Positions 1-32,621 of a stretch of 32,698 nucleotides of DNA are shown one piece after another. Numbering within the stretch: the stretch's first letter is position 1; the number at the start of each line of letters is the position of its first letter. Under the pieces are notes generated by a model. The model did not search any database. It had not been told where the DNA came from and saw nothing but the letters and a program-made list of their open reading frames with translations. A program made the position numbers and the translations under genes. Source of the stretch: a virus; IMG/VR virus record IMGVR_UViG_3300025120_000274, positions 1 through 32,698 of that record; one strand, 5' to 3'.

Positions 1-1118
1 TATATTCTTTGTTCATACCTATGGAATGGAATTACGAAGGATTCATTGACAATTATGGAATGCCTGTATTCGAAGACCCATCAGAAAGCTGCAAGGGCCC
101 ATACGGCGACCCTATTGAAGTCGGGGTCATCAACCATTGGAATAATGAGGTAGATGGATTAAGAGGCGATCAAGACGCTTTAAATGAATTTTACAGACAA
201 TTCCCAAGAACAGAAGAGCACGCTTTTCGGGACGAAACAAAAAATAGTATATTTAATTTAGTTAAAATATACGAGCAAATAGATTACAACGAAGATTTAA
301 GAAACACAAGCGTTGTAACCACAGGGAGTTTTATGTGGGAAAATGGCATAAAAGATACTAAAGTAAAATTTACACCAAACCCTAGCGGCAGATTTAAAAT
401 ATCTTGGGTTCCAAGTTTTGATTTGCAAAATCGCCAAATTATTAAGAATGGGGCTAAGCACCCGGGTAATGAACATATAGGTGCATTTGGGTGTGATAGT
501 TATGACATATCGGGAACAACAGACGGTAAAGGCTCCAAGGGCGCATTGCATGGTGTTACAAAGTTTAGTATGGAAGATGCGCCACCCCATTCGTTTTTTT
601 TAGAATATGTTGCAAGGCCTCAAACAGCGGAAATGTTTTTTGAAGATGTTTTAATGGCTATAGTTTTTTACGGTATGCCAATATTAGCAGAAAACAATAA
701 ACCTAGACTTTTATATTATTTAAAAAGAAGGGGCTATAGAGGTTACTCTATGAACCGGCCAGACAGACTTTGGAATAAGTTATCTGTAACAGAAAAAGAA
801 ATAGGTGGTATACCAAATTCGAGTGAAGACATTAAGCAAGCTCATGCAGCCGCAATTGAATCTTACATAGATAAATACGTTGGTTTAAAATCCGATGGAG
901 ACTATGGCGATCTATATTTTAATCAAACATTAAATGATTGGTCAAAATTTGACATAAACAAAAGAACAAAATTTGATGCTTCTATTAGCAGCGGACTAGC
1001 CATTATGGCTTGCAATAGAAATTTGTATAGGCCGGTTGCAAAAAAAGTTAAACAAAAATTAAACCTAAGTGTCGCTAGATATACCAATAGCGGTAGTTTA
1101 TCAAAAATAATAAAATAA
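1..1118 (+). CDS. terL: Terminase large subunit, C-terminal part (5' end outside window)
   Basis: This is the 3' part of the DNA-packaging motor gene. The frame is open to the left edge (codons from base 3 read Y-S-L-F-I-P-M-E-W-N), so the TTG at 9 is not a start and the ATPase domain lies outside the window. What remains fits the RNase H-like nuclease domain. A beta-strand carries an aspartate in FGCDSYDISG (D codon at 495-497). A second acidic position follows in PILAENNKPRLL. A late aspartate sits in KFDASISSGLAIMA, near the C-terminus. This D...E...D spacing and the flanking strand/helix pattern are typical of the headful-cutting nuclease of TerL proteins. The portal gene follows after 2 bases, the usual order in tailed phages. 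The identity rests on motifs plus synteny. The subfamily cannot be set without the ATPase part. Confidence 0.85.
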   Translation, partial: YSLFIPMEWNYEGFIDNYGMPVFEDPSESCKGPYGDPIEVGVINHWNNEVDGLRGDQDALNEFYRQFPRTEEHAFRDETKNSIFNLVKIYEQIDYNEDLRNTSVVTTGSFMWENGIKDTKVKFTPNPSGRFKISWVPSFDLQNRQIIKNGAKHPGNEHIGAFGCDSYDISGTTDGKGSKGALHGVTKFSMEDAPPHSFFLEYVARPQTAEMFFEDVLMAIVFYGMPILAENNKPRLLYYLKRRGYRGYSMNRPDRLWNKLSVTEKEIGGIPNSSEDIKQAHAAAIESYIDKYVGLKSDGDYGDLYFNQTLNDWSKFDINKRTKFDASISSGLAIMACNRNLYRPVAKKVKQKLNLSVARYTNSGSLSKIIK

Positions 1119-8876: not shown

Positions 8877-11800
8877 ATGCCAGAATTTATCCATTCCTTC
8901 ACTAGGGGGAAAATGAATAAAGATCTTGATGAGCGATTGGTGCCAAATGGCGAATATCGTGATGCTTTAAATTTAGATATTGCAAACTCAGAAGGATCAA
9001 ATGTAGGTGCTTTACAAAATGTAAAAGGTAATGTGGAGCTAAGAGGTAAAGCCGACGACTTAAATGGCTGGCAGGCAAATTATATAGAGGATTTGTCTAA
9101 TCCTGTTTGTATTGGATCAATAAGAAACGATATAGATGAAAAAATATATTGGTTTATTGCTTCTGACAATGTGAGCGCTATTGCTGAGCTTGATACTACA
9201 ACTGGATATATTTACCCTATATTGGTGGATAAAAACAATATATTAAAGTTCAGTAAAGACTATTTAATAACCGGTATAAATATATTAGACAAGTTTTTGT
9301 TTTGGACAGACGATCAGACAGAACCTAAGAAAATTAACGTTGAAAAGTTTAAGGCTGGCTCTTGTGATTTTAATACACACACAAAAATACCCGAATGGAA
9401 TCCAGACCAAGATAATTATACAGAGGTTAACTGCGGGTTTGTTGGAGCAACAGAGCCGGACTTTACAGAAGAAGATGTAACTGTAATTAAAAAATCCCCT
9501 CTTACAGCACCAACCATCAATGCAGCGGCATCGCCTTTTGGGAACGATATAGCTGGTACAGGGATTGATCCAGTTTATGCTTTTGCAGATGCCCCTATCC
9601 CCGGCCAAACGACAGGATTTGAAAATTTTACCTATACTCCTCAGGTCTTGATAGACCCTCTCGTACAAGAATCATTACCTACATATGGTGAATTTTTAGC
9701 GAACACAACGGGGCCAAACGGCAACCCAACCTATTATAACAATAGTAATCTTCCTGCAAATTGGAACGGAAGAGTCAATTTTACTTTAGAAAGTATTTAT
9801 GGAACAGACCCGGCTACAGGAGAATCTGTTTGGCAAATAAATGATATTATATTTTTGCAAGGATCAAAAACTGACGATTTTAATGAAACGCTAGAATATC
9901 AGGTTACTATAAAAATTACAGCTATAAACAATCTTGTAATAACCGGAGAAATTCAGGCTATTTCTAGTGGTATATTAAGATTTTTAGATATAAATCTTAA
10001 TCCTTCCCTTGTAAGTTGGGAAATTGTTTTAAAGGAGCAGGATCCGATGTACGAGTATGTTTTTCCAAGATTTGCTTATAGGTGGAGGTACATAGACAAT
10101 GAATATTCTGCATTTTCTCCTTTTTCCAAAGTAGCTTTTATCGGGAATAGATTTAAATACGTATCTTCGGATGGGTATAATATAGGTATGACAAATAATA
10201 TAAGAAAGCTTATTGTAGAATCTTTAACCCATGGGTCCGAAGAGGTTGCTGAGATAGAAATATTATATAAAGAATCCAATAATACATCAGTTTACTCTAT
10301 AGACTCAATAAAGAAAAAAGAATTTGCTCCCTATAATGCTGGAGCACCGGCTCTTCCTACAATATTTGAAATTAAATCTGAAGTTATAGGCCAAACTGTA
10401 CAAGCAAATCAACTTTTGCGCCCATGGGATAATGTTCCTAGAAAAGCCAAGGCCCAAGAAATTATAGCAAATAGAGTGGTATATGGCAACTATTTGCAAA
10501 ATTATACAGTAGATTCAACCCTGGATTTAAAAGTTAGCACAACTAATATTGCTCACCCAGGTAGTAGTAATGTAGAAAACCCTGAGGTAACGCTTGAGGA
10601 GTCGGAGATTAGGATGCCGCATGAATCTTTAAAAACAATTAGAACTTATCAAACAGGAATTGTGTTTAAGGACGAATTCGGAAGAGAGACCCCTGTTGTT
10701 ACAAATAAAAATGCGTCTATAAAATTAGAAATAAATAATTCAGATAAATTAAATAAAATAACTGTGGAGCCCATTAGCTCTGCTCCTAGCTGGGCAACTC
10801 ATTATAAGTTTTTTGTTAAAGATACATCTAACGAGTATTACAATTTAGCTTTAGATAGGTTTTACGAAGCAGAGGACGGTAATGTATGGTTATCTTTCCC
10901 CTCTTCAGAAAGGAATAAGGTTGACGAAGAAACATATTTGATACTTAAAAAGCAGCATGACAACAACATTGCCATTGAAAATTTAGTAAAATACAAAATA
11001 TTATCGATAAAGAGCAGCGCTCCCGATTTTATAAAAACTTTTGATATTGCAGTGGTGCAGGGTAATGCTACTAATCTTCAAGGTTTTGAACCTGGATTTG
11101 TGCAAATTAGTTTTAATTCAACCACGGATTTTAGCGGGAAATTGCAAGGTGGGTTTTTAGTGGAAATTTTTTCCGGAGGAGTGTCTGATAGATATATAAT
11201 AAGCGGAGGCGAATGTACTGGATCAACTACCTTTAATGTTACCATAGATCTAGAAAGAGAACTTGGCCAAGATACCGCGTTTTTGCAAGGCGCTACTGGG
11301 GCAAATATAAGAATATATGAACCTAAAGTGGAAAATGAACCTGAATTTGAAGGTAGGTTTTTTGTAAAAATAAATAGAGATTTTGCTTTTGACACAAATA
11401 TTATAGCGCCTTTTGACGCTTTGGAAAAAAGATATGGTATTTTAGCAAGTTTAGACTTTAAATCTCCAGAAGCATATCAAAATATAAATAGTGGGTGGGG
11501 GAATAGCACGAGATGGCACAGAATGGGCTGGCATCATATTGATAGAGGAGAAGCGGGTACAGATTCTGGCTGTAGATCACGATATCGAAGAGTAGGGCAT
11601 GGTCAAGTGGGTAACAATATTGCTCAAGGTATTATAGATATTTTTGGAGTAGTTCAATACGATAGCCAATTTTTAGGGTGTATTTTTTCAGGGCCAAAAA
11701 GTGTAATGCACGAAAGAGGTTGCAACGGAAGCGGAGGAGGAACTGCTTGCGGGCAAACATTTTACGATGATGTGGCAGCCGGTTCTTTAATAAGAATAGT

Positions 11801-14486
11801 AATGAACGACGGCACCAAAACGGAGCCTTATCGAGTTAGAAGAGTAGAAAAAAGCTCTAGTCATTTTAGAGGAAGAAAAAGAGGAGCTTGCACACTAGGC
11901 TGCACGGATTGCCAGAAAAACACGGATGGGAATAAAGCTTGTACAATGGCTATAGAGTTAGTTCGTCCTATATCAGATTTATTTGTAGGCAATGGAACCA
12001 CAGCAGCACTTAACAATATAAAAGGCTACGAATTAGTAAGAGAAATAATAAGCGACAGAAATAAACTTTTAACTTCTACAAATCCCGCAATATTTGAAAC
12101 TGAGCCTAAGGAGGCTGTTGATTTAGATTTATATTACGAATCCTCTAACGCTTTTCCGATAGCTCAATATAATTCTACTCAAACTTTAGATTATTATAAT
12201 TGCTTTTCTTATGGGCAAGGAGTGGAATCAAATAGGATTAGGGATGATTACAACGCTCCTACTATAGACAAAGGGCCAAAGTTATCGGCACCTTTAGATG
12301 AGCCATACGCAGAGGAAAGAAGAGGTAGTGGCATGATATTTTCTCAGATATACAACTCAACATCGGGAATAAATAGATTAAATCAATTTATACAAGCAGA
12401 GCCTATTACTAAGGATTTGAACCCTATACATGGTACTATCCAAAAAATGCACGCACGGGACACTGACGCTATTGTTTTGTGTGAGGATAAATGCTTTAGA
12501 ATATTAGCAAATAAAGATGCGTTATTTAATGCCGATGGGAGCGCAAATGTAACTTCAAATCAGGCTGTTTTAGGCCAAGCTGTACCGTATGCAGGCGAGT
12601 TTGGTATTTCAAAAAACCCTGAATCGTTTGCATCATATGGATTTAGAGCTTATTTTTCAGACAAAAACAGAGGCGCAGTAATAAGACTCTCTGTAGACGG
12701 TATTACAAATATAGCTGAAAAAGGTATGACAGACTTTTTTAATGATAATTTAAAAGCGTCTACCAATATAATAGGTAGTTATAATGATAGAAAAGACTTA
12801 TATAATTTAACAGTAGATTCTTTATCAACTCAGTGGCAAAACGCTTTTAATACTAGCCAAACCTACCAATTGAACCCAGACTGTAATGCTGGATCGATTA
12901 CAGCTTCCTTAGAGGGGACAACCATATCTTTTAAAGAAACCGTTGACGGTTGGACAAGCCGCAAATCTTTTATACCAGAAAGCGGGGTTAGTATAAATAA
13001 TTTGTATTATACATTTAAAGATGGCAGAATATATGAGCACGGATTGAATGTAGCAGCTAATAATTTTTATAGAGTTCAGCACGAAAGTTCTTTTAATTTA
13101 TTAATTAATGAACAGCCTAATATTGTAAAAGGATATAGCACTATAAACTATACCGGAACAAGATCAAGAAGACTCGAATACCAACATAATCAAAAATTTT
13201 ATTCTATAGCAGAAATAAACGCTCTTCAGGTTATACCAACAAGTGTCCAGCAAAAAAGGCCAGGGTGGTATGTAAATTATATTAAAACAGACCTTGAAGG
13301 AGGAGAAGTAAAAGAATTTGAGAAAAAAGAAGGTAAGTATTTTAACTATATAAAAGGTTTAGAAATATTTAATGATTGTGATCTTATAGGCGACGGTATA
13401 GACAACCCGGATATAATTGATGCAGATCCACAGAATTATATATTAACGTTTACTATTGATCCTACTTGCAGTGACACAGGAGGCACAACGCCTGACACAA
13501 TACAATATTTTGTTAACATATGGGCCGGTAGAAAAGCTTTGGCCAACAACACTATTGATTTGGATATAGAGCCAATAACATCAAGTGCACAAGATGTTAA
13601 ATGTGCTATTGAAAATTTCTACACAACTATAACTCCTTTCCAAAATTACGCGCAAGTTGTAAACACGGGGACAGTGTTTTCTTACGTATTTAGTGATGGC
13701 TTGCAGGCTGGGACTCAAATGTATAATCACCTAACCAATGAGGCCATAACTCAAGCAGGCGCTTATTTATTTGTAAATACACCAGCTGATCAAACGTCAG
13801 ATATAGTTAACCATGCAGGGTTAGACGTAAATAATCCAATAGCCGTTCCGGCATCTTATTATGTAATGATATTAGGGGCAGATGGTAAAATTGCATCTTA
13901 TACACAATATAATACGCTTAACCCATGCGTAGGAGATCCTGAAAAAGCAGTATACACTTTTAGCAATTATTCATCAAGTAAGTTTCCTTTTGAAACACCC
14001 AATGTTGCTGTTATTACACATTATAATCCAACAATAGGCGGGACTTCTACAGATGCTCAATTAATTTGTGCACACAAAAATGCATTTAGCGAGTATTTTG
14101 CAAACGCATTACCAGGATGTTCACCCCCTAGCGGTGCAGAGCCTTGTAAAACGGCTAGTGGCATTGGATCTCTTGGGTATTATTATTCGGCAGCACAAGG
14201 CGGATCAGACACTATCGCTGTAGGCACTCAGCTTTATGGTTACAGCGCATCTCAAGAACAATACATACCAGCTTTCCCAAATGGATATGTTGGCATTGTT
14301 GACATAACTAACTATAATAATAATTTAATATTACCTGGAAGAGTAGGGACAACATTTACGCCACAAAGTTTTTGGGATAATGTAGCTACTCTTGATAATA
14401 AGTGGAAAATAATAAGAATAGATAGCAATGGAGTAATTACTCACTTAGACCAGATAAATCAGATTACAAACCCAACATGCCCTTAA
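8877..14486 (+). CDS. Large tail tube / stabilisation protein with propeller-like N-terminus, 1869 aa
   Basis: This is probably a tail nozzle component in the place of T7 gp12 (tail tubular protein B), greatly enlarged. The N-terminus KMNKDLDERLVPNGEYRDAL is the hallmark of the stabilisation/tail proteins of crAss-like and marine podoviruses. It continues into beta-propeller-like repeats, including KIYWF at 89-93 and FLFWTDDQTEPKKINVE with WTD at 143-145. A block near residues 1228-1265 (VPYAGEFGISKNPESFASYG, then AYFSDKNRGAVIRLS) matches a block I know from structural proteins of marine phages. Between them lies a cysteine-rich stretch with Cys 899, 935, 949, 958, 1005, 1009, 1012 and 1022, and a Trp/His motif at 880-887. 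The C-terminal 400 residues are repetitive beta-rich and may be receptor-facing. Its length is over twice that of T7 gp12 (794 aa), so it may combine tube and fibre-anchor roles. Confidence 0.7.
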   Translation: MPEFIHSFTRGKMNKDLDERLVPNGEYRDALNLDIANSEGSNVGALQNVKGNVELRGKADDLNGWQANYIEDLSNPVCIGSIRNDIDEKIYWFIASDNVSAIAELDTTTGYIYPILVDKNNILKFSKDYLITGINILDKFLFWTDDQTEPKKINVEKFKAGSCDFNTHTKIPEWNPDQDNYTEVNCGFVGATEPDFTEEDVTVIKKSPLTAPTINAAASPFGNDIAGTGIDPVYAFADAPIPGQTTGFENFTYTPQVLIDPLVQESLPTYGEFLANTTGPNGNPTYYNNSNLPANWNGRVNFTLESIYGTDPATGESVWQINDIIFLQGSKTDDFNETLEYQVTIKITAINNLVITGEIQAISSGILRFLDINLNPSLVSWEIVLKEQDPMYEYVFPRFAYRWRYIDNEYSAFSPFSKVAFIGNRFKYVSSDGYNIGMTNNIRKLIVESLTHGSEEVAEIEILYKESNNTSVYSIDSIKKKEFAPYNAGAPALPTIFEIKSEVIGQTVQANQLLRPWDNVPRKAKAQEIIANRVVYGNYLQNYTVDSTLDLKVSTTNIAHPGSSNVENPEVTLEESEIRMPHESLKTIRTYQTGIVFKDEFGRETPVVTNKNASIKLEINNSDKLNKITVEPISSAPSWATHYKFFVKDTSNEYYNLALDRFYEAEDGNVWLSFPSSERNKVDEETYLILKKQHDNNIAIENLVKYKILSIKSSAPDFIKTFDIAVVQGNATNLQGFEPGFVQISFNSTTDFSGKLQGGFLVEIFSGGVSDRYIISGGECTGSTTFNVTIDLERELGQDTAFLQGATGANIRIYEPKVENEPEFEGRFFVKINRDFAFDTNIIAPFDALEKRYGILASLDFKSPEAYQNINSGWGNSTRWHRMGWHHIDRGEAGTDSGCRSRYRRVGHGQVGNNIAQGIIDIFGVVQYDSQFLGCIFSGPKSVMHERGCNGSGGGTACGQTFYDDVAAGSLIRIVMNDGTKTEPYRVRRVEKSSSHFRGRKRGACTLGCTDCQKNTDGNKACTMAIELVRPISDLFVGNGTTAALNNIKGYELVREIISDRNKLLTSTNPAIFETEPKEAVDLDLYYESSNAFPIAQYNSTQTLDYYNCFSYGQGVESNRIRDDYNAPTIDKGPKLSAPLDEPYAEERRGSGMIFSQIYNSTSGINRLNQFIQAEPITKDLNPIHGTIQKMHARDTDAIVLCEDKCFRILANKDALFNADGSANVTSNQAVLGQAVPYAGEFGISKNPESFASYGFRAYFSDKNRGAVIRLSVDGITNIAEKGMTDFFNDNLKASTNIIGSYNDRKDLYNLTVDSLSTQWQNAFNTSQTYQLNPDCNAGSITASLEGTTISFKETVDGWTSRKSFIPESGVSINNLYYTFKDGRIYEHGLNVAANNFYRVQHESSFNLLINEQPNIVKGYSTINYTGTRSRRLEYQHNQKFYSIAEINALQVIPTSVQQKRPGWYVNYIKTDLEGGEVKEFEKKEGKYFNYIKGLEIFNDCDLIGDGIDNPDIIDADPQNYILTFTIDPTCSDTGGTTPDTIQYFVNIWAGRKALANNTIDLDIEPITSSAQDVKCAIENFYTTITPFQNYAQVVNTGTVFSYVFSDGLQAGTQMYNHLTNEAITQAGAYLFVNTPADQTSDIVNHAGLDVNNPIAVPASYYVMILGADGKIASYTQYNTLNPCVGDPEKAVYTFSNYSSSKFPFETPNVAVITHYNPTIGGTSTDAQLICAHKNAFSEYFANALPGCSPPSGAEPCKTASGIGSLGYYYSAAQGGSDTIAVGTQLYGYSASQEQYIPAFPNGYVGIVDITNYNNNLILPGRVGTTFTPQSFWDNVATLDNKWKIIRIDSNGVITHLDQINQITNPTCP

Positions 14487-14501: not shown

Positions 14502-16115
14502 ATGCCATCAATAAACAATTACACTTTTTCAGAACCTGTATTTAACATTCCAGAGGAATCAAATATAGTGACCTTAGTGGGGGCAACTGCAGTAATAACA
14601 ATTACACCTAACACTGGTTTCACGGCAACCGCTGGGGATTTTTCAACTACAAGCTTTAATGCTACTTACATATCAAATGTTGCTTTTACTCAAAGTGGCA
14701 ATAATGTACTATGTACAATGACCCTAGTTAATACAACCACAATGCCATCTAGCAACTTGACTTTAGGTTTATGTGTATCAGGTTCCGCGGTAGAAAAATT
14801 AATAACTATAGGCGGAAAATATAGCGCGGTCGTTGGATCAAACGTTACAGGCGACTCGTCTGAAACCGATGTAGTATACAGCGCTAGCGGCATTATGTCA
14901 ACAGTTAGTTCTTTATTTACAAAAACTTATAATGCAGCTACGGGTTATTTTTGGGAGGGGACCAGTATACCTTCTATAAATATTGTAAAAGGCAATCAAA
15001 AACATTATTCAATTGCACAAACGCCTACATTTGATGCCTCAAATAGACTGACAAATATAGCTTACGCTGTTAGTTATCAGTTTCCAGGTAAAGATGTTTC
15101 AGGCGATGAAATTTCTATTAATGTGCCGTCAACTCAGGAAATATATGTTCCTGTTGCTAAGATTTTTGGTTACAACTTTAATACAGCTGGCTTGGGTAAT
15201 CTGCCTAGTGTTAGAAACCTTACTGTTTTTGGAGGTGAAGGCGCTGCTGTTACGGCAACCTTAACATATGGCGCTACCAGTACTATTATAATAAACAATG
15301 AAACTATAACGGCTTTAGGGCAAATTACTAAACCTGTAGCATTCCCTGAGCTAATAAAAGGAGACCCTGATGTTAATTATACTTTAACATTAACAGGAGA
15401 CTTGCCGTCTGGGGGATTAACACAGCCGAATCCAATATTAGTCAAGCAAAGAGACGAAATATTAATAAGATTCCTTGCTACAACAGCAAACCCAATATCA
15501 GGCTTTACGCAGGTTAATAGACAATTTAAGCCTTTAACGCAATCGCCATTCCAAAACCCGCCAACAGAAACGGGTATTGGGGCCCCTTTTGGCAATTGGC
15601 TTGTTAAAATAAATAGCACAATTACTGCATTGTCTGGAACAATAGCAGTTGCGAGGCAGCTTGACGATGATCATATAAGTGATTTTAGCAATACCACAGT
15701 TGTAGGGCTAGGCGATACGCCTGTTACAGCAACAGGAGCTCAATCGAGCGTAACATCTTTAATAATATCTGACACTACGGATATTGTTGCTGGCATGCAA
15801 TTTAATAATCAAAACAGAAACCCCAATGGTGGAAACTCTTTCGCTAGGTCTCCTTTGGCGCCATATACGCATTCAGTTTCTAGCGTAGACAGCTCTACAC
15901 AATTAACTGTATCACCATCTATAACCGTGTCTAATGGCGAGCTTCTTTCTTTTACAAATAGCAAAGGTACATTTTTTAATATTACAGAAAGTAATATAAA
16001 ACAAATAAACTCAACCAGCGTGCAACTTGAGGCCTTAATAGCTATAGTAAACATAGGAGATAGCGATATTGATTTTACGCTTAATCTAGATAACTTAATA
16101 ACACATACACCGTAA
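14502..16115 (+). CDS. Beta-rich putative tail/fibre protein, 537 aa
   Basis: I do not recognise a named family. The protein is rich in Thr, Ser, Asn, Gly and Ile with very few Cys or charged helices, and alternates short strands and loops throughout (for example VVGATAVITITPNTG-like patterning near the N-terminus, and NYTLTLTGDLPSGG around residues 287-300). This composition is typical of phage fibre, baseplate or immunoglobulin-like decoration proteins. It lies right after the large tail protein and its stop overlaps the next start (TAATG at 16113-16117), so the two are co-translated. It may be a fibre shaft or an adhesin subunit. No transmembrane segment or enzymatic motif is visible. Confidence 0.55.
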   Translation: MPSINNYTFSEPVFNIPEESNIVTLVGATAVITITPNTGFTATAGDFSTTSFNATYISNVAFTQSGNNVLCTMTLVNTTTMPSSNLTLGLCVSGSAVEKLITIGGKYSAVVGSNVTGDSSETDVVYSASGIMSTVSSLFTKTYNAATGYFWEGTSIPSINIVKGNQKHYSIAQTPTFDASNRLTNIAYAVSYQFPGKDVSGDEISINVPSTQEIYVPVAKIFGYNFNTAGLGNLPSVRNLTVFGGEGAAVTATLTYGATSTIIINNETITALGQITKPVAFPELIKGDPDVNYTLTLTGDLPSGGLTQPNPILVKQRDEILIRFLATTANPISGFTQVNRQFKPLTQSPFQNPPTETGIGAPFGNWLVKINSTITALSGTIAVARQLDDDHISDFSNTTVVGLGDTPVTATGAQSSVTSLIISDTTDIVAGMQFNNQNRNPNGGNSFARSPLAPYTHSVSSVDSSTQLTVSPSITVSNGELLSFTNSKGTFFNITESNIKQINSTSVQLEALIAIVNIGDSDIDFTLNLDNLITHTP

Positions 16116-16462
16116 TGGCAAATATAACATTAACATTTTCAAATCCATTACCTGAAACTATACAAGTGGGAGATATTGCTTGGTATGTAGATTCTTCTGC
16201 TGCTGTAGGAACTGGCCAGCAAGAGTTTCAAATGGGACCAATAATATCCTATACTGTGACTCCTCCTTACCAGGTAGTAATAAACGCAGCCGTTGGTGTC
16301 CAGCCGCCCACGGCAAATGATTTTGTATTTTATGTAAAAGACCCCATAGCCAAAGTAGGTCAATTAAAGGGGTATTTCGCAGAAGTTCAATTTAGAAATA
16401 ACAGTACGGCATTTGCAGAATTATTTTCAGTAGGCAGCGAAGTGTTTGAAAGTAGCAAATAA
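16115..16462 (+). CDS. Small beta-rich putative tail protein, 115 aa
   Basis: The family is not recognised. The protein is beta-rich, beginning NITLTFSNPLPETIQVGDIA and containing DIAWYVDSS, a pattern of short strands and turns with Pro and Gly. The start codon shares one base with the upstream stop (TAATG), showing tight translational coupling to the 537-aa protein and suggesting that they work in fixed ratio, for example as subunits of the same fibre or collar. It is too short for a full fibre. No motif for enzymatic function is visible. Confidence 0.55.
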   Translation: MANITLTFSNPLPETIQVGDIAWYVDSSAAVGTGQQEFQMGPIISYTVTPPYQVVINAAVGVQPPTANDFVFYVKDPIAKVGQLKGYFAEVQFRNNSTAFAELFSVGSEVFESSK

Positions 16463-16479
16463 TACGTAATAATAATTAT

Positions 16480-16968
16480 ATGCCTAAAAATAAAATAAAA
16501 TCAAATAATAACAAATTAAGCACATTTACTCACCAGTTGGAATGTGTGCAAGACGTAATGATAGAAAACAATCATTTAGAATACGTATATGGCGATGGTA
16601 AAAATTTAGTTAATAATGAAATTTTCAGAATTGAAAACGATTTTTCTGACCAATTGTACATGCGCAAAATGTATATGCCCAAAGAATCCGTTGTTATTAG
16701 CGCAATGCATCATACAGAGCATTTTTGGTTTTTATTAAAGGGAAGAATACTGGTAACCACAGACGGGGAACAAGTCGAGCACATAGCTCCTTGTTTTGAA
16801 AAGTCTATGAAAGGTGCAAAAAGATTAATATTAGCCCTGGAGGACTCTTTATTTATAAATGTACATAAAAACCCGACAAACACTAAAGATATGAGCAAGG
16901 TTGAAGAGTATTTATACTCTATAACCATCGAAGAATACAACAAAAAAGAAAAATTATGGCAGGAATAG
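16480..16968 (+). CDS. Cupin-fold protein in the tail gene cluster, 162 aa
   Basis: The C-terminal two thirds look like a single cupin beta-barrel. Motif 1 is MHHTEHFWFLLKGRILVTTDGE with His77, His78, Glu80, His81 and Gly88. Motif 2 is the region APCFEKSMKGAKRLILALED followed by SLFINVHKNP, where the conserved P/G turn and the final His129 fall where a metal-binding His is expected. The first ~50 residues are Asn/Lys-rich. Cupins bind metals or sugars and need not be enzymes. Here the gene is surrounded by virion genes and its last 13 bases overlap the start of the next gene, so it is likely an assembly helper or virion component rather than a metabolic enzyme, which is inference. Substrate and metal cannot be read from the sequence. 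Confidence 0.65.
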   Translation: MPKNKIKSNNNKLSTFTHQLECVQDVMIENNHLEYVYGDGKNLVNNEIFRIENDFSDQLYMRKMYMPKESVVISAMHHTEHFWFLLKGRILVTTDGEQVEHIAPCFEKSMKGAKRLILALEDSLFINVHKNPTNTKDMSKVEEYLYSITIEEYNKKEKLWQE

Positions 16969-29302: not shown

Positions 29303-31024
29303 CTAACCATCACACGCGAGACAATCTTCACTCATTGCTTGCTGTGCAATATCTCCACGTAGAACACTTTCTGTTCTAGTATAATACAAAGTTTTAATAC
29401 CGTTTTTCCAAGCAGTCATATGAACCTGATTAATCCATTTAGGCGTAGCCACGCTAGGGAACGCTAGGTTTAAACTAACAGACTGATCTATATACTGCTG
29501 GCGTATACCTGCTTGATTGACTAACTCTAATTGGTTAATCTCCTTAAACGTCTTAAATACTTCCTTCGCCGGGATTTCGTGTGATCCAACAGTAATCCCA
29601 TCAAGCTCATCCAGACCTTGAACACTACCACCATCCGCGAGAATTTTATCCCATGTTTCATTCGTATTAATTTTAAGTTTTCTAAGTAATTTTAAAAGTG
29701 TAGGGTTTTTTCTTATGAAAGTTCCTTTAGCCGACTGCTCCGTAAATACATTAGCAGCCCAAGGTTCTATTCCTGGCGAAACATTTCCCGAAAGCTTACT
29801 ATTGCTAACAGTGGGAGCAACAGCGCGCAGGTGAGTATTACGATAGCCAGTGCCAGCACACCACAAAGGTTCACCATAAACTTCAGCAAGAGCCATACTA
29901 GCCCTTTCAGACTCGATTTTAATTTGCGAAAATATTTTCCTAGTTTCAAACTGAGCGAGTAAACCTTCAAAAGGTATTCCCTTTTCTTGGAGATACGTGT
30001 GCCATCCGAGTACACCCAGTCCAAGCGCTCGTCCTTTCGTAGCAGAACGAATGGCATTTTCAAAACCTCTAAGTCCTTTTGCTCTTTGAATAAATTCCTC
30101 CATAACGCCATCAAGAAACCACGTAGCGTGGTATATAAGGTTACTTCCTTTCCATTCATCATATTTAGCTAAGTTTAGTGATGACAAGCAGCATACAAAG
30201 CTATGGTTCTCGTCTGTGTGTAATGTAATCTCTGAACATATGTTTGTCATATGTACCTTTAAGCCATTGTCTTTGTAGGCTTTTGGGTTATTTTTATTTG
30301 TATTCCCCTTAAAAAGGATGTAAGGTTCGCCAGTAGCTTTTCGCTTTTGAAGTAATTTTCCCCAACGTTTTCTAGCTTCTCTATCTCCTTGTTCAATTCG
30401 TCGCATAAACTTATCGCCGACAACCGCGCATTGATGTAAGTTAAGGGATTGCCTGTTGACGTCTCCTTTAGGTTCACGTATTTCGAGCCACTCATCGAAA
30501 TCGGGGTGATCAATATTGATATTAACTGATGCAGCTCCTCGTCTGACAGATCCTTGATTAGTGGCAAGTATTGTTGAATCGTATATTTTACAAAAAGGTA
30601 CAACTCCGTCGCTTGTTCCATTTCCTGTTATTTTAGCGCCAGCGGGTCTTATTTGATTTATACCGATGCCAACTCCACCGCCGTGCTTAGCGAGTAGCAT
30701 CATTTCTAAGTTTTTCTGCCCTATGTCCTGTATCGAATCAGCAACATCAATGCCAAAACAGCTAATAGGCAACCCACGATCAGTACCAGTGTTGGATAGT
30801 ACAGGACTAGCCAAGCAAAGCCAACCATTCCAAATATACTCAAAAAACGTATCGGCCAGTTCAGGCTTATACAAACGTCTAGCCACTGTTTTAGCAATTC
30901 TTTGATATGCGTCACGAGGCGTTTCATCTTGTAATAAGTAACCACCCGCGATAGTTTTTTTGTATACATCCGTATCGCCCCACTTAGGGTAGTCTTCGCC
31001 TTTTTTCCATTCATTATTCCACAT
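29303..31024 (-). CDS. nrdA: Class I ribonucleotide reductase, large subunit (NrdA), 573 aa
   Basis: This enzyme reduces ribonucleoside diphosphates to deoxy forms for phage DNA synthesis, with NrdB as radical-generating partner. Catalytic parts are visible: Cys89 in RGLPISCFGIDV (first redox cysteine), Asn261, Cys263 and Glu265 in MTNICSEITL (radical cysteine and partners), Cys278/279 in CCLSSLNL (second redox cysteine), the Tyr547-Tyr548 radical-transfer pair in LYYTRT, and a C-terminal Cys568-x2-Cys571 relay (EDCLACDG). The length is short: the N-terminal ATP-cone of E. coli NrdA (761 aa) is absent and the protein starts directly at the reductase domain, so dATP inhibition by that route is not expected. 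The start ATG shares its A with the stop of the upstream 42-aa gene (TAATG), and the gene runs into the bidirectional terminator. No frameshift was seen. Confidence 0.95.
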   Translation of the reverse strand: MWNNEWKKGEDYPKWGDTDVYKKTIAGGYLLQDETPRDAYQRIAKTVARRLYKPELADTFFEYIWNGWLCLASPVLSNTGTDRGLPISCFGIDVADSIQDIGQKNLEMMLLAKHGGGVGIGINQIRPAGAKITGNGTSDGVVPFCKIYDSTILATNQGSVRRGAASVNINIDHPDFDEWLEIREPKGDVNRQSLNLHQCAVVGDKFMRRIEQGDREARKRWGKLLQKRKATGEPYILFKGNTNKNNPKAYKDNGLKVHMTNICSEITLHTDENHSFVCCLSSLNLAKYDEWKGSNLIYHATWFLDGVMEEFIQRAKGLRGFENAIRSATKGRALGLGVLGWHTYLQEKGIPFEGLLAQFETRKIFSQIKIESERASMALAEVYGEPLWCAGTGYRNTHLRAVAPTVSNSKLSGNVSPGIEPWAANVFTEQSAKGTFIRKNPTLLKLLRKLKINTNETWDKILADGGSVQGLDELDGITVGSHEIPAKEVFKTFKEINQLELVNQAGIRQQYIDQSVSLNLAFPSVATPKWINQVHMTAWKNGIKTLYYTRTESVLRGDIAQQAMSEDCLACDG

Positions 31025-31652: not shown

Positions 31653-32621
31653 TTACCAAATGTCTTCGAAGTCTTCCCCTTCGTTAGCTTTGCTATAATC
31701 CGTCGGCCGTATTGCGAAAAAATCAGTATGAGTGACCCCGCCGGTAAGATGATAGAACCAATCAAGATTAGCCGCTGCAGCTTTGTCATACGCGAAATAG
31801 TTCCCAAGGTCAACGTACCCCAGTTCAACAAGTTTTTCATTTGCTCTCTTTTTTATAAAATGCGTAAGATCATTTGATGATATGCCTTCAATGTCCCCCA
31901 TCTCAAACATTTTGTTAATATACTTAGTCTCTAATGCCACCATAGTTTCTGCGGCTTTTACTATATCTTCTCGGCATAAATTCAGTAATTGATTGTTTTC
32001 ACTGCACATATCGCGGAAAAGCTTACAGCCCATTTTGCTGTGCAGGCTTTCATCACGAACAGACCATTTCATTTGTTGCCCGATACCCTTAAGTAAATTT
32101 CGAAGCTGAAAACTATACAACACTGCAAAAGCACTATACAAGCTAACTCCTTCAGCGAAGGCTGAAAATACAGCCAAGCTTTTACCAATGCCAACAGAAT
32201 TATCGCCGTCGTAAGCAACCAGATTATCAAATCTCTCAGCCGTTGCTGGTTCATGTAAGAATGCTTCATAGTCTTCTAATCCTAATGTTTCATTTAAATA
32301 ACTGTATGCTACCGCATGTATTGTCTCTTGTGATCCAAACATCATAGCCATTTGCTGTATCTCATACTTTGGAAACCAACTTACTACTTTTTGGGTCCAG
32401 TAATCAGAAACCGCGCACTCCGTCTGCGCGAAGCCCAATAGTATATTACCGACCAGGTTCTTTTCTTTATCATTTAGTTTTTCTTTCCAATCTTTAACGT
32501 CTCCTTGCATTGGTATTTCGGTGTGTAACCAAAATGCTTGCGCTTGCTTTAACCAACCTTCTGTGTAATATTCAGGGTATTCAAAAGGCTTATACGGTAT
32601 TCTTTTATCAAACAATCCCAT
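31653..32621 (-). CDS. nrdB: Class I ribonucleotide reductase, small subunit (NrdB), 322 aa
   Basis: This subunit forms the dimetal centre and tyrosyl radical that activate NrdA. The ferritin-like helices carry the ligands Glu68 (TECAV), Glu99 and His102 (QETIHAVAY), Glu157 (AEGVSLY), Glu191 and His194 (RDESLHS). The radical tyrosine is Tyr106, four residues after His102, as in E. coli Tyr122 after His118. The first ligand is Glu, where E. coli has Asp84; Glu is found there in class Ic enzymes, but those lack the tyrosine, so this is an intermediate combination. The C-terminus ends DFEDIW, which should dock to NrdA. The start ATG shares its A with the stop of the upstream gene (TAATG), and the length is close to that of small NrdB forms. 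It is the first complete gene of the visible - strand operon. Confidence 0.95.
   Translation of the reverse strand: MGLFDKRIPYKPFEYPEYYTEGWLKQAQAFWLHTEIPMQGDVKDWKEKLNDKEKNLVGNILLGFAQTECAVSDYWTQKVVSWFPKYEIQQMAMMFGSQETIHAVAYSYLNETLGLEDYEAFLHEPATAERFDNLVAYDGDNSVGIGKSLAVFSAFAEGVSLYSAFAVLYSFQLRNLLKGIGQQMKWSVRDESLHSKMGCKLFRDMCSENNQLLNLCREDIVKAAETMVALETKYINKMFEMGDIEGISSNDLTHFIKKRANEKLVELGYVDLGNYFAYDKAAAANLDWFYHLTGGVTHTDFFAIRPTDYSKANEGEDFEDIW

Follow-up and report, generated by a model that had tools for sequence, protein, structure and literature searches.

The 32,698-nucleotide stretch of viral DNA analyzed here (IMG/VR record IMGVR_UViG_3300025120_000274; "the window") carries a large gene in whose product a run of cysteines raised the question of what these residues do. 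The initial annotation, made from the letters alone, had read positions 11511–11945 (residues 879–1023) as a Cys-, Trp- and His-rich insert in a tail protein, perhaps an acquired module for receptor contact or a redox-sensitive trigger, with cysteines that could bind zinc or iron or form disulfides. We asked what kind of protein this is, how the stretch varies among relatives, and which chemistry its cysteines best fit.

The protein and its neighborhood

The product of the gene is a muzzle protein of a crAss-like phage, a known kind of protein (Table 1). It matched phrog_14478 over four stretches (E = 7.5e-137) and resembled structural proteins of Cellulophaga, Flavobacterium, Tenacibaculum and Maribacter phages (87 records). 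A large model of residues 380–1480, built from 96 sequences (mean pLDDT 81.7), had the phicrAss001 muzzle as its top Foldseek match in the PDB (7qok_A, E = 3.4e-18; a second muzzle match had E = 1.4e-17), and its alignment with 7qol_P by VIA-align gave Z = 13.3 and an rmsd of 4.7 over 491 aligned residues (Z = 12.5 for the other muzzle match). The TM-scores of the muzzle matches were low (0.28–0.33); at 13% identity across the aligned positions, no more is to be expected of a large and flexible protein with several domains. A HMMER sequence search against solved structures, including the phicrAss001 muzzle, gave no usable match; a lone row in the solved-structure sequence search, an interleukin receptor at E = 0.23, was dismissed. 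The Pfam family crAss_MUZ_C (PF25729) scored 24.5 bits in this protein, where the cut-off is 27, and 28.9 and 37.4 bits in the relatives L090 and L068, respectively.

Excerpts of the phicrAss001 structure paper (PMC10172136) describe the muzzle as a hexamer in which a crass domain is inserted into an immunoglobulin-like domain. According to the same excerpts, the exposed crass-domain loops at the tail tip have a likely role in cell-surface contact, muzzles differ in length where the crass and IG2 regions have gained insertions, and the gate presumably opens only when the crass domain and the immunoglobulin-like domains rearrange.

The neighbors of the muzzle gene are the end of the terminase large subunit gene, genes for a portal-like and a capsid-like protein, and other structural genes. 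The portal and capsid labels are our reading of gene order and size; the capsid-like protein had a weak Pfam match (E = 0.063). The next two genes are related to stretches that relatives carry as C-terminal extensions of the muzzle protein itself (for L004, 40% over 124 residues, E = 6e-15; for the end of L052, 33%, E = 3e-11). Judging by these matches, tail-tip parts that are split here may be fused in those phages. The first of the two genes had a match in 12 of the 13 records, a count that includes its own. A small cupin-like protein encoded at 16480–16968 (+) matched phage short tail fibre/adhesin families (phrog_12032, E = 1.6e-23) and, weakly, Pfam Cupin_2, while 29303–31024 and 31653–32621 (−) encode what we take to be the large and small subunits of ribonucleotide reductase.

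Among the relatives are giant muzzle proteins of 2,400–3,160 residues (L060, L068, L081, L084, L089 and L090) with 40–81 cysteines, most of which fall in the C-terminal third. L090 and L068 carry them as repeats with the pattern GCTDPTAxNYDPxANxDDGSC; searching the literature for DDGSC brought up nothing relevant. The C-terminus of the L060 muzzle (L060:12201–15584, residues about 990–1126 of this stretch) matched PT-HINT (E = 1.3e-9) and Hint (E = 2.9e-8) in Pfam, which suggests possible self-processing at the tail tip. The sole match in the bacterial genome collection was to a Flavobacteriales assembly contig (L331), a partial match limited to 42 residues in the downstream anchor described below, and may be a weak hint of the host group.

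Table 1. Features of the muzzle gene and the genes that follow it, in window coordinates.
Feature	Residues	Position	Strand	Remarks and basis
Muzzle (tail-tip) protein, crAss-like phage	1,869 aa	8877–14486	+	phrog_14478, Foldseek, VIA-align
Hypervariable segment	823–1078	11343–12110	+	Between anchors PEFEGRFF and NPAIFETEP; segment extraction, identity profile
WHRMGWHH	880–887	11514–11537	+	Private; alignment of 109 relatives
Loop A window	890–905	11544–11591	+	Follows predicted strand 884–889
C899, common loop A Cys	899	11571–11573	+	Cys in column in 61 of 109 aligned relatives
C935	935	11679–11681	+	In predicted strand, rare in relatives; alignment, model
C949 and C958	949, 958	11721–11750	+	Loop of low model confidence, near-private; alignment, model
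Loop B window	1000–1016	11874–11924	+	Contains C1005, C1009 and C1012; alignment, two models
C1009, common loop B Cys	1009	11901–11903	+	54 of 109 aligned relatives
C1022	1022	11940–11942	+	In strand after loop B, rare; alignment, model
Muzzle C-terminal part	1501–1869	13377–14483	+	Also variable, 11–18% identity in 1681–1860; eight Cys in 1501–1868
Two next genes		14502–16115 and 16115–16462	+	Related to fused C-terminal muzzle extensions of relatives; sequence comparison

The hypervariable segment and its cysteines

The eight cysteines (residues 899, 935, 949, 958, 1005, 1009, 1012 and 1022) are exactly where the initial annotation placed them in the open reading frame, and the spacing C-x3-C-x2-C-x9-C is correct by the letters. 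The description of the rest of the protein as poor in cysteine did not hold: there are 24 cysteines in all (1.28%), of which 16 are outside the stretch, half of these in the C-terminal part. The other virion proteins counted in the window have 0–1.3% Cys, most of them less than 0.5%. When the 24 cysteines were shuffled at random (20,000 shuffles), eight within 125 residues had P = 0.008, and four within 18 residues had P = 0.02. Adding Trp and His weakened the case (0.03 to 0.15; P = 0.15 for Cys, Trp and His together in 60 residues). By itself, the clustering of cysteines is only modestly unlikely by chance. Two of the eight, C899 and C1009, are common among relatives; the other six are rare or private. 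The WHRMGWHH motif is present as described, but private to this sequence: columns 880–881 are gaps in 105 of the 109 aligned relatives, and column 887 holds W, Y or F in 102 of them.

The stretch lies in a hypervariable segment of the muzzle. Identity to nine close relatives is 17–27% in residues 841–1020, compared to 66–87% in residues 1081–1260 and 77% in residues 661–720. The sister pair L013/L014 is 69% identical in the segment versus 89% and 95% in the flanks, and the other sister pairs display the same contrast. The C-terminal part of the muzzle varies as much as the segment. Relatives about 50% identical overall all have, flanked by the same two anchors, a segment of about this size, in disagreement with its description as an insert. 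The segment is 217 residues long here, 69 in phi46:3 and phi13:2, 115–121 in two elemoviruses and 206–238 in three others, and exceeds only some distant cultured relatives in length. Receptor contact by the segment is plausible, this being the hypervariable part of the muzzle outside the conserved blocks.

The large model and a second model, of the domain, place the same strands at about residues 851–865, 884–889, 932–938, 971–976, 985–995, 1021–1028 and 1048–1058, and in both the segment is made up of strands and long loops. C899 follows the second strand, C1005–C1012 fall between the fifth and sixth, and C935 and C1022 are in strands. The large model has a confidence of 75–76 at loops A and B, the domain model one of 82–86. 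The domain model weakly resembles small β-barrels, including parts of phage baseplates and tailspikes (best Z = 7.4), and Foldseek found no PDB match to it at E ≤ 0.001. Since the likeness is weak, no fold was assigned. The order and spacing of the strands resemble those of gp44, the phicrAss001 muzzle, as presented in excerpts of PMC10172136, from which we infer that the segment may correspond to the small β-barrel of the crass domain.

Acquisition of a receptor-binding module by insertion into the muzzle gene might be argued from the composition of the segment, which is unlike that of the flanks, and from the far shorter segments (69–121 residues) of some distant cultured relatives, but is highly improbable and already largely refuted by the relatives, since the segment is common to the close ones, with the same anchors and order of predicted elements, and the domain model contains no clear foreign domain.

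Diversity-generating retroelements in crAss-like phages target hypervariable tail protein regions, according to excerpts of two reports (PMC12386605, PMC10136315), and the segment is similar in being such a region; the variation here differs in that it includes many length changes. No reverse transcriptase was found in any of the 13 records examined (none of them shown to be complete). Repeats of at least 30 bases in the window form five short families, none of which puts the segment in a template–variable pair. Going by these records and the window, a retroelement is unlikely.

Cysteines of loops A and B among relatives

The relatives were the best 80 per scan among more than 425 related stretches, and the tree was built from the flanks alone. 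With loop windows that had been narrowed after wider ones were seen (wider counts 53/27/9/5), and in a MAFFT alignment, a method prone to putting the cysteines of variable loops in one column, 49 of 94 unique relatives had cysteine in both loops, 39 in neither, five in loop A only and one in loop B only (88 of 94 concordant). A likelihood-ratio test on the tree favored dependent traits (28.2, 4 df, p about 1e-5), and among 3000 simulations in which the traits evolved independently on the tree, none gave a phi as high as the observed 0.87. Control windows that did not overlap loops A or B gave phi values of at most 0.27. Further unique sequences, scored with windows fixed beforehand, were concordant in 15 of 15 cases (7 both, 8 neither), but three of these share 89–95% identity with sequences of the first set and there are two pairs of similar sequences among them; the 15 therefore do not represent fifteen independent events. 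Across the sequences sampled, the cysteines of loops A and B tend to be present or absent jointly.

The numbers of cysteines in the two loops are also correlated (Spearman 0.44, p = 0.0008, for the 56 rows with cysteine in both; 0.39–0.44, p = 0.003–0.02, in cluster representatives). The commonest cysteine class (27 of 109) has one Cys per loop, with no other Cys or His conserved; Asp at 889 is conserved in this class and is present in the Cys-free class too. Two cysteines in loop A plus four in loop B occur in L094, L097, L101, L139, L033 and relatives, and three plus three in L018, L182 and L183. The loop B motif C-T-x-G-C-x-D-C-Q-K is common to this phage, L094 and L139. Within its windows, the present protein has one cysteine in loop A and three in loop B, so not all of them pair between the loops. 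Among 30 representatives (50% identity) with cysteine in both loops, 24 had an even count and six an odd one. This parity was not decisive as a sign of disulfides, since 15 of the 24 are one-plus-one.

What the paired cysteines may do

Of the two chemistries originally proposed, disulfide formation fits best, since the cysteines of the two loops come and go together; metal binding fared less well. We prefer a disulfide because the commonest class has two cysteines, because cysteines tended to be added to both loops, because virions are found outside the reducing cytoplasm, and because disulfides are known in phage tails. In phicrAss001, the tail barrel and hubs contain disulfides between proteins (excerpts of PMC10172136).

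We infer that loops A and B touch, that the bond between them is a disulfide, and that it may form within one chain rather than between subunits. In about half of the sampled lineages both loops have cysteine, most simply one each, equivalent to C899 and C1009, and these two would most likely become disulfide-joined once the virion leaves the reducing cytoplasm. The bond would then fix the shape of two long surface loops that change fast and that would meet the host surface. That the hypervariable loops contact the host is presumed by analogy with what the excerpted structure paper (PMC10172136) proposes for the crass domain, combined with the hypervariability seen here. In the clade of this phage, extra cysteines appear to have been added to the same loops, probably forming further cross-links. 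It is with moderate confidence that we consider the segment to be the variable, loop-bearing part of the muzzle's crass-like domain, in which a disulfide staples two host-contacting loops.

The co-occurrence of the cysteines fits bonds within and between chains equally. Pairs formed between neighboring subunits of the muzzle hexamer could lock the tail tip, which might be loosened by reduction on reaching the host surface, thereby aiding the opening of the gate. This arrangement would suit the hexameric phicrAss001 muzzle, its presumed domain rearrangement and the inter-protein disulfides of its barrel and hubs (excerpts of PMC10172136), and in phage Milano the tail cannot contract until disulfides between its subunits have been reduced (excerpts of PMC10811340). 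However, the pair is absent in about half of the relatives, so the gate does not need it, and we regard such a lock as unlikely.

We also considered the possibility that the two loops have no joint function, and that long loops and cysteines travel together by shared ancestry while cysteine numbers drift. The stricter independent-pairs test (treekit) agrees with this in not being significant, with an average of 2.3 pairs the same way and 0 opposite among five pairs on supported branches, too few for an adequately powered test. Cysteine-bearing loops are also longer on average (47 versus 34 and 23 versus 17 residues). However, the association holds among long-loop sequences (64 of 109: 53 both, 8 neither, 3 discordant) as well as in the tree simulations, and the 15 further sequences agree, some of them being close to earlier ones. 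Loop length does not account for the association, and the lack of a joint function is distinctly unlikely.

Binding of zinc or iron by the cysteines, with histidine, was suggested by C1009-x2-C1012, which looks like a metal knuckle, and by the subclade of L094, L097, L101 and L139 with its two-plus-four cysteines. The common state of one Cys per loop argues against it: a search for four conserved Cys or His ligands in the one-plus-one class found two conserved cysteines and no conserved histidine, too few ligands for an ordinary zinc site. Moreover, the histidines of WHRMGWHH are private, and no metal-binding Pfam domain was matched with an E-value of 1 or below. Metal binding is therefore improbable. 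Less probable again is a redox-sensed ejection trigger, in which a cysteine latch between hexamer subunits would be released by a reducing host surface in some marine crass-like lineages and be absent in others; its whole case derives from the analogy with Milano, as described in excerpts of PMC10811340.

Compared with known systems, the closest likeness is to phicrAss001 gp44 (7qok, 7qol), which shares the overall fold by Foldseek and VIA-align and has a variable crass domain with exposed loops (excerpts of PMC10172136). The present protein differs in its lack of a HMMER sequence match to gp44 and in its low identity over the aligned residues, and the excerpts do not describe paired cysteines of the loop A/B kind. 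The Cellulophaga and Flavobacterium phages phi46:3, phi13:2, Calle_1 and elemoA, Maribacter phage Panino and Tenacibaculum phage Gundel_1 have a homologue of the muzzle gene at 25–29% identity, with gene order preserved, but their segment contains 0–1 Cys in the seven compared, which weighs against a staple. No isolated phage in the phage collection matched the domain of L129. A literature search of open-licence papers found none on cysteines in muzzle loops, and, so far as this literature goes, paired-Cys variable loops have not been described, whereas the muzzle is a known kind of protein. Agrobacterium phage Milano is similar in having Cys-rich virion tail proteins outside the cell, with disulfides acting as a mechanical lock, but its tail is contractile, the proteins are unrelated, and its bonds were seen by cryo-EM and mass spectrometry, where the present case is one of covariation (excerpts of PMC10811340). 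Within the crass domain, for which the excerpts of the structure paper (PMC10172136) propose contact with the host surface without naming the loops that make it, the fastest-varying loop pair, with its jointly occurring cysteines, marks a candidate site on the tail tip, and the chemistry predicted for it is simple: a single disulfide, C899–C1009.
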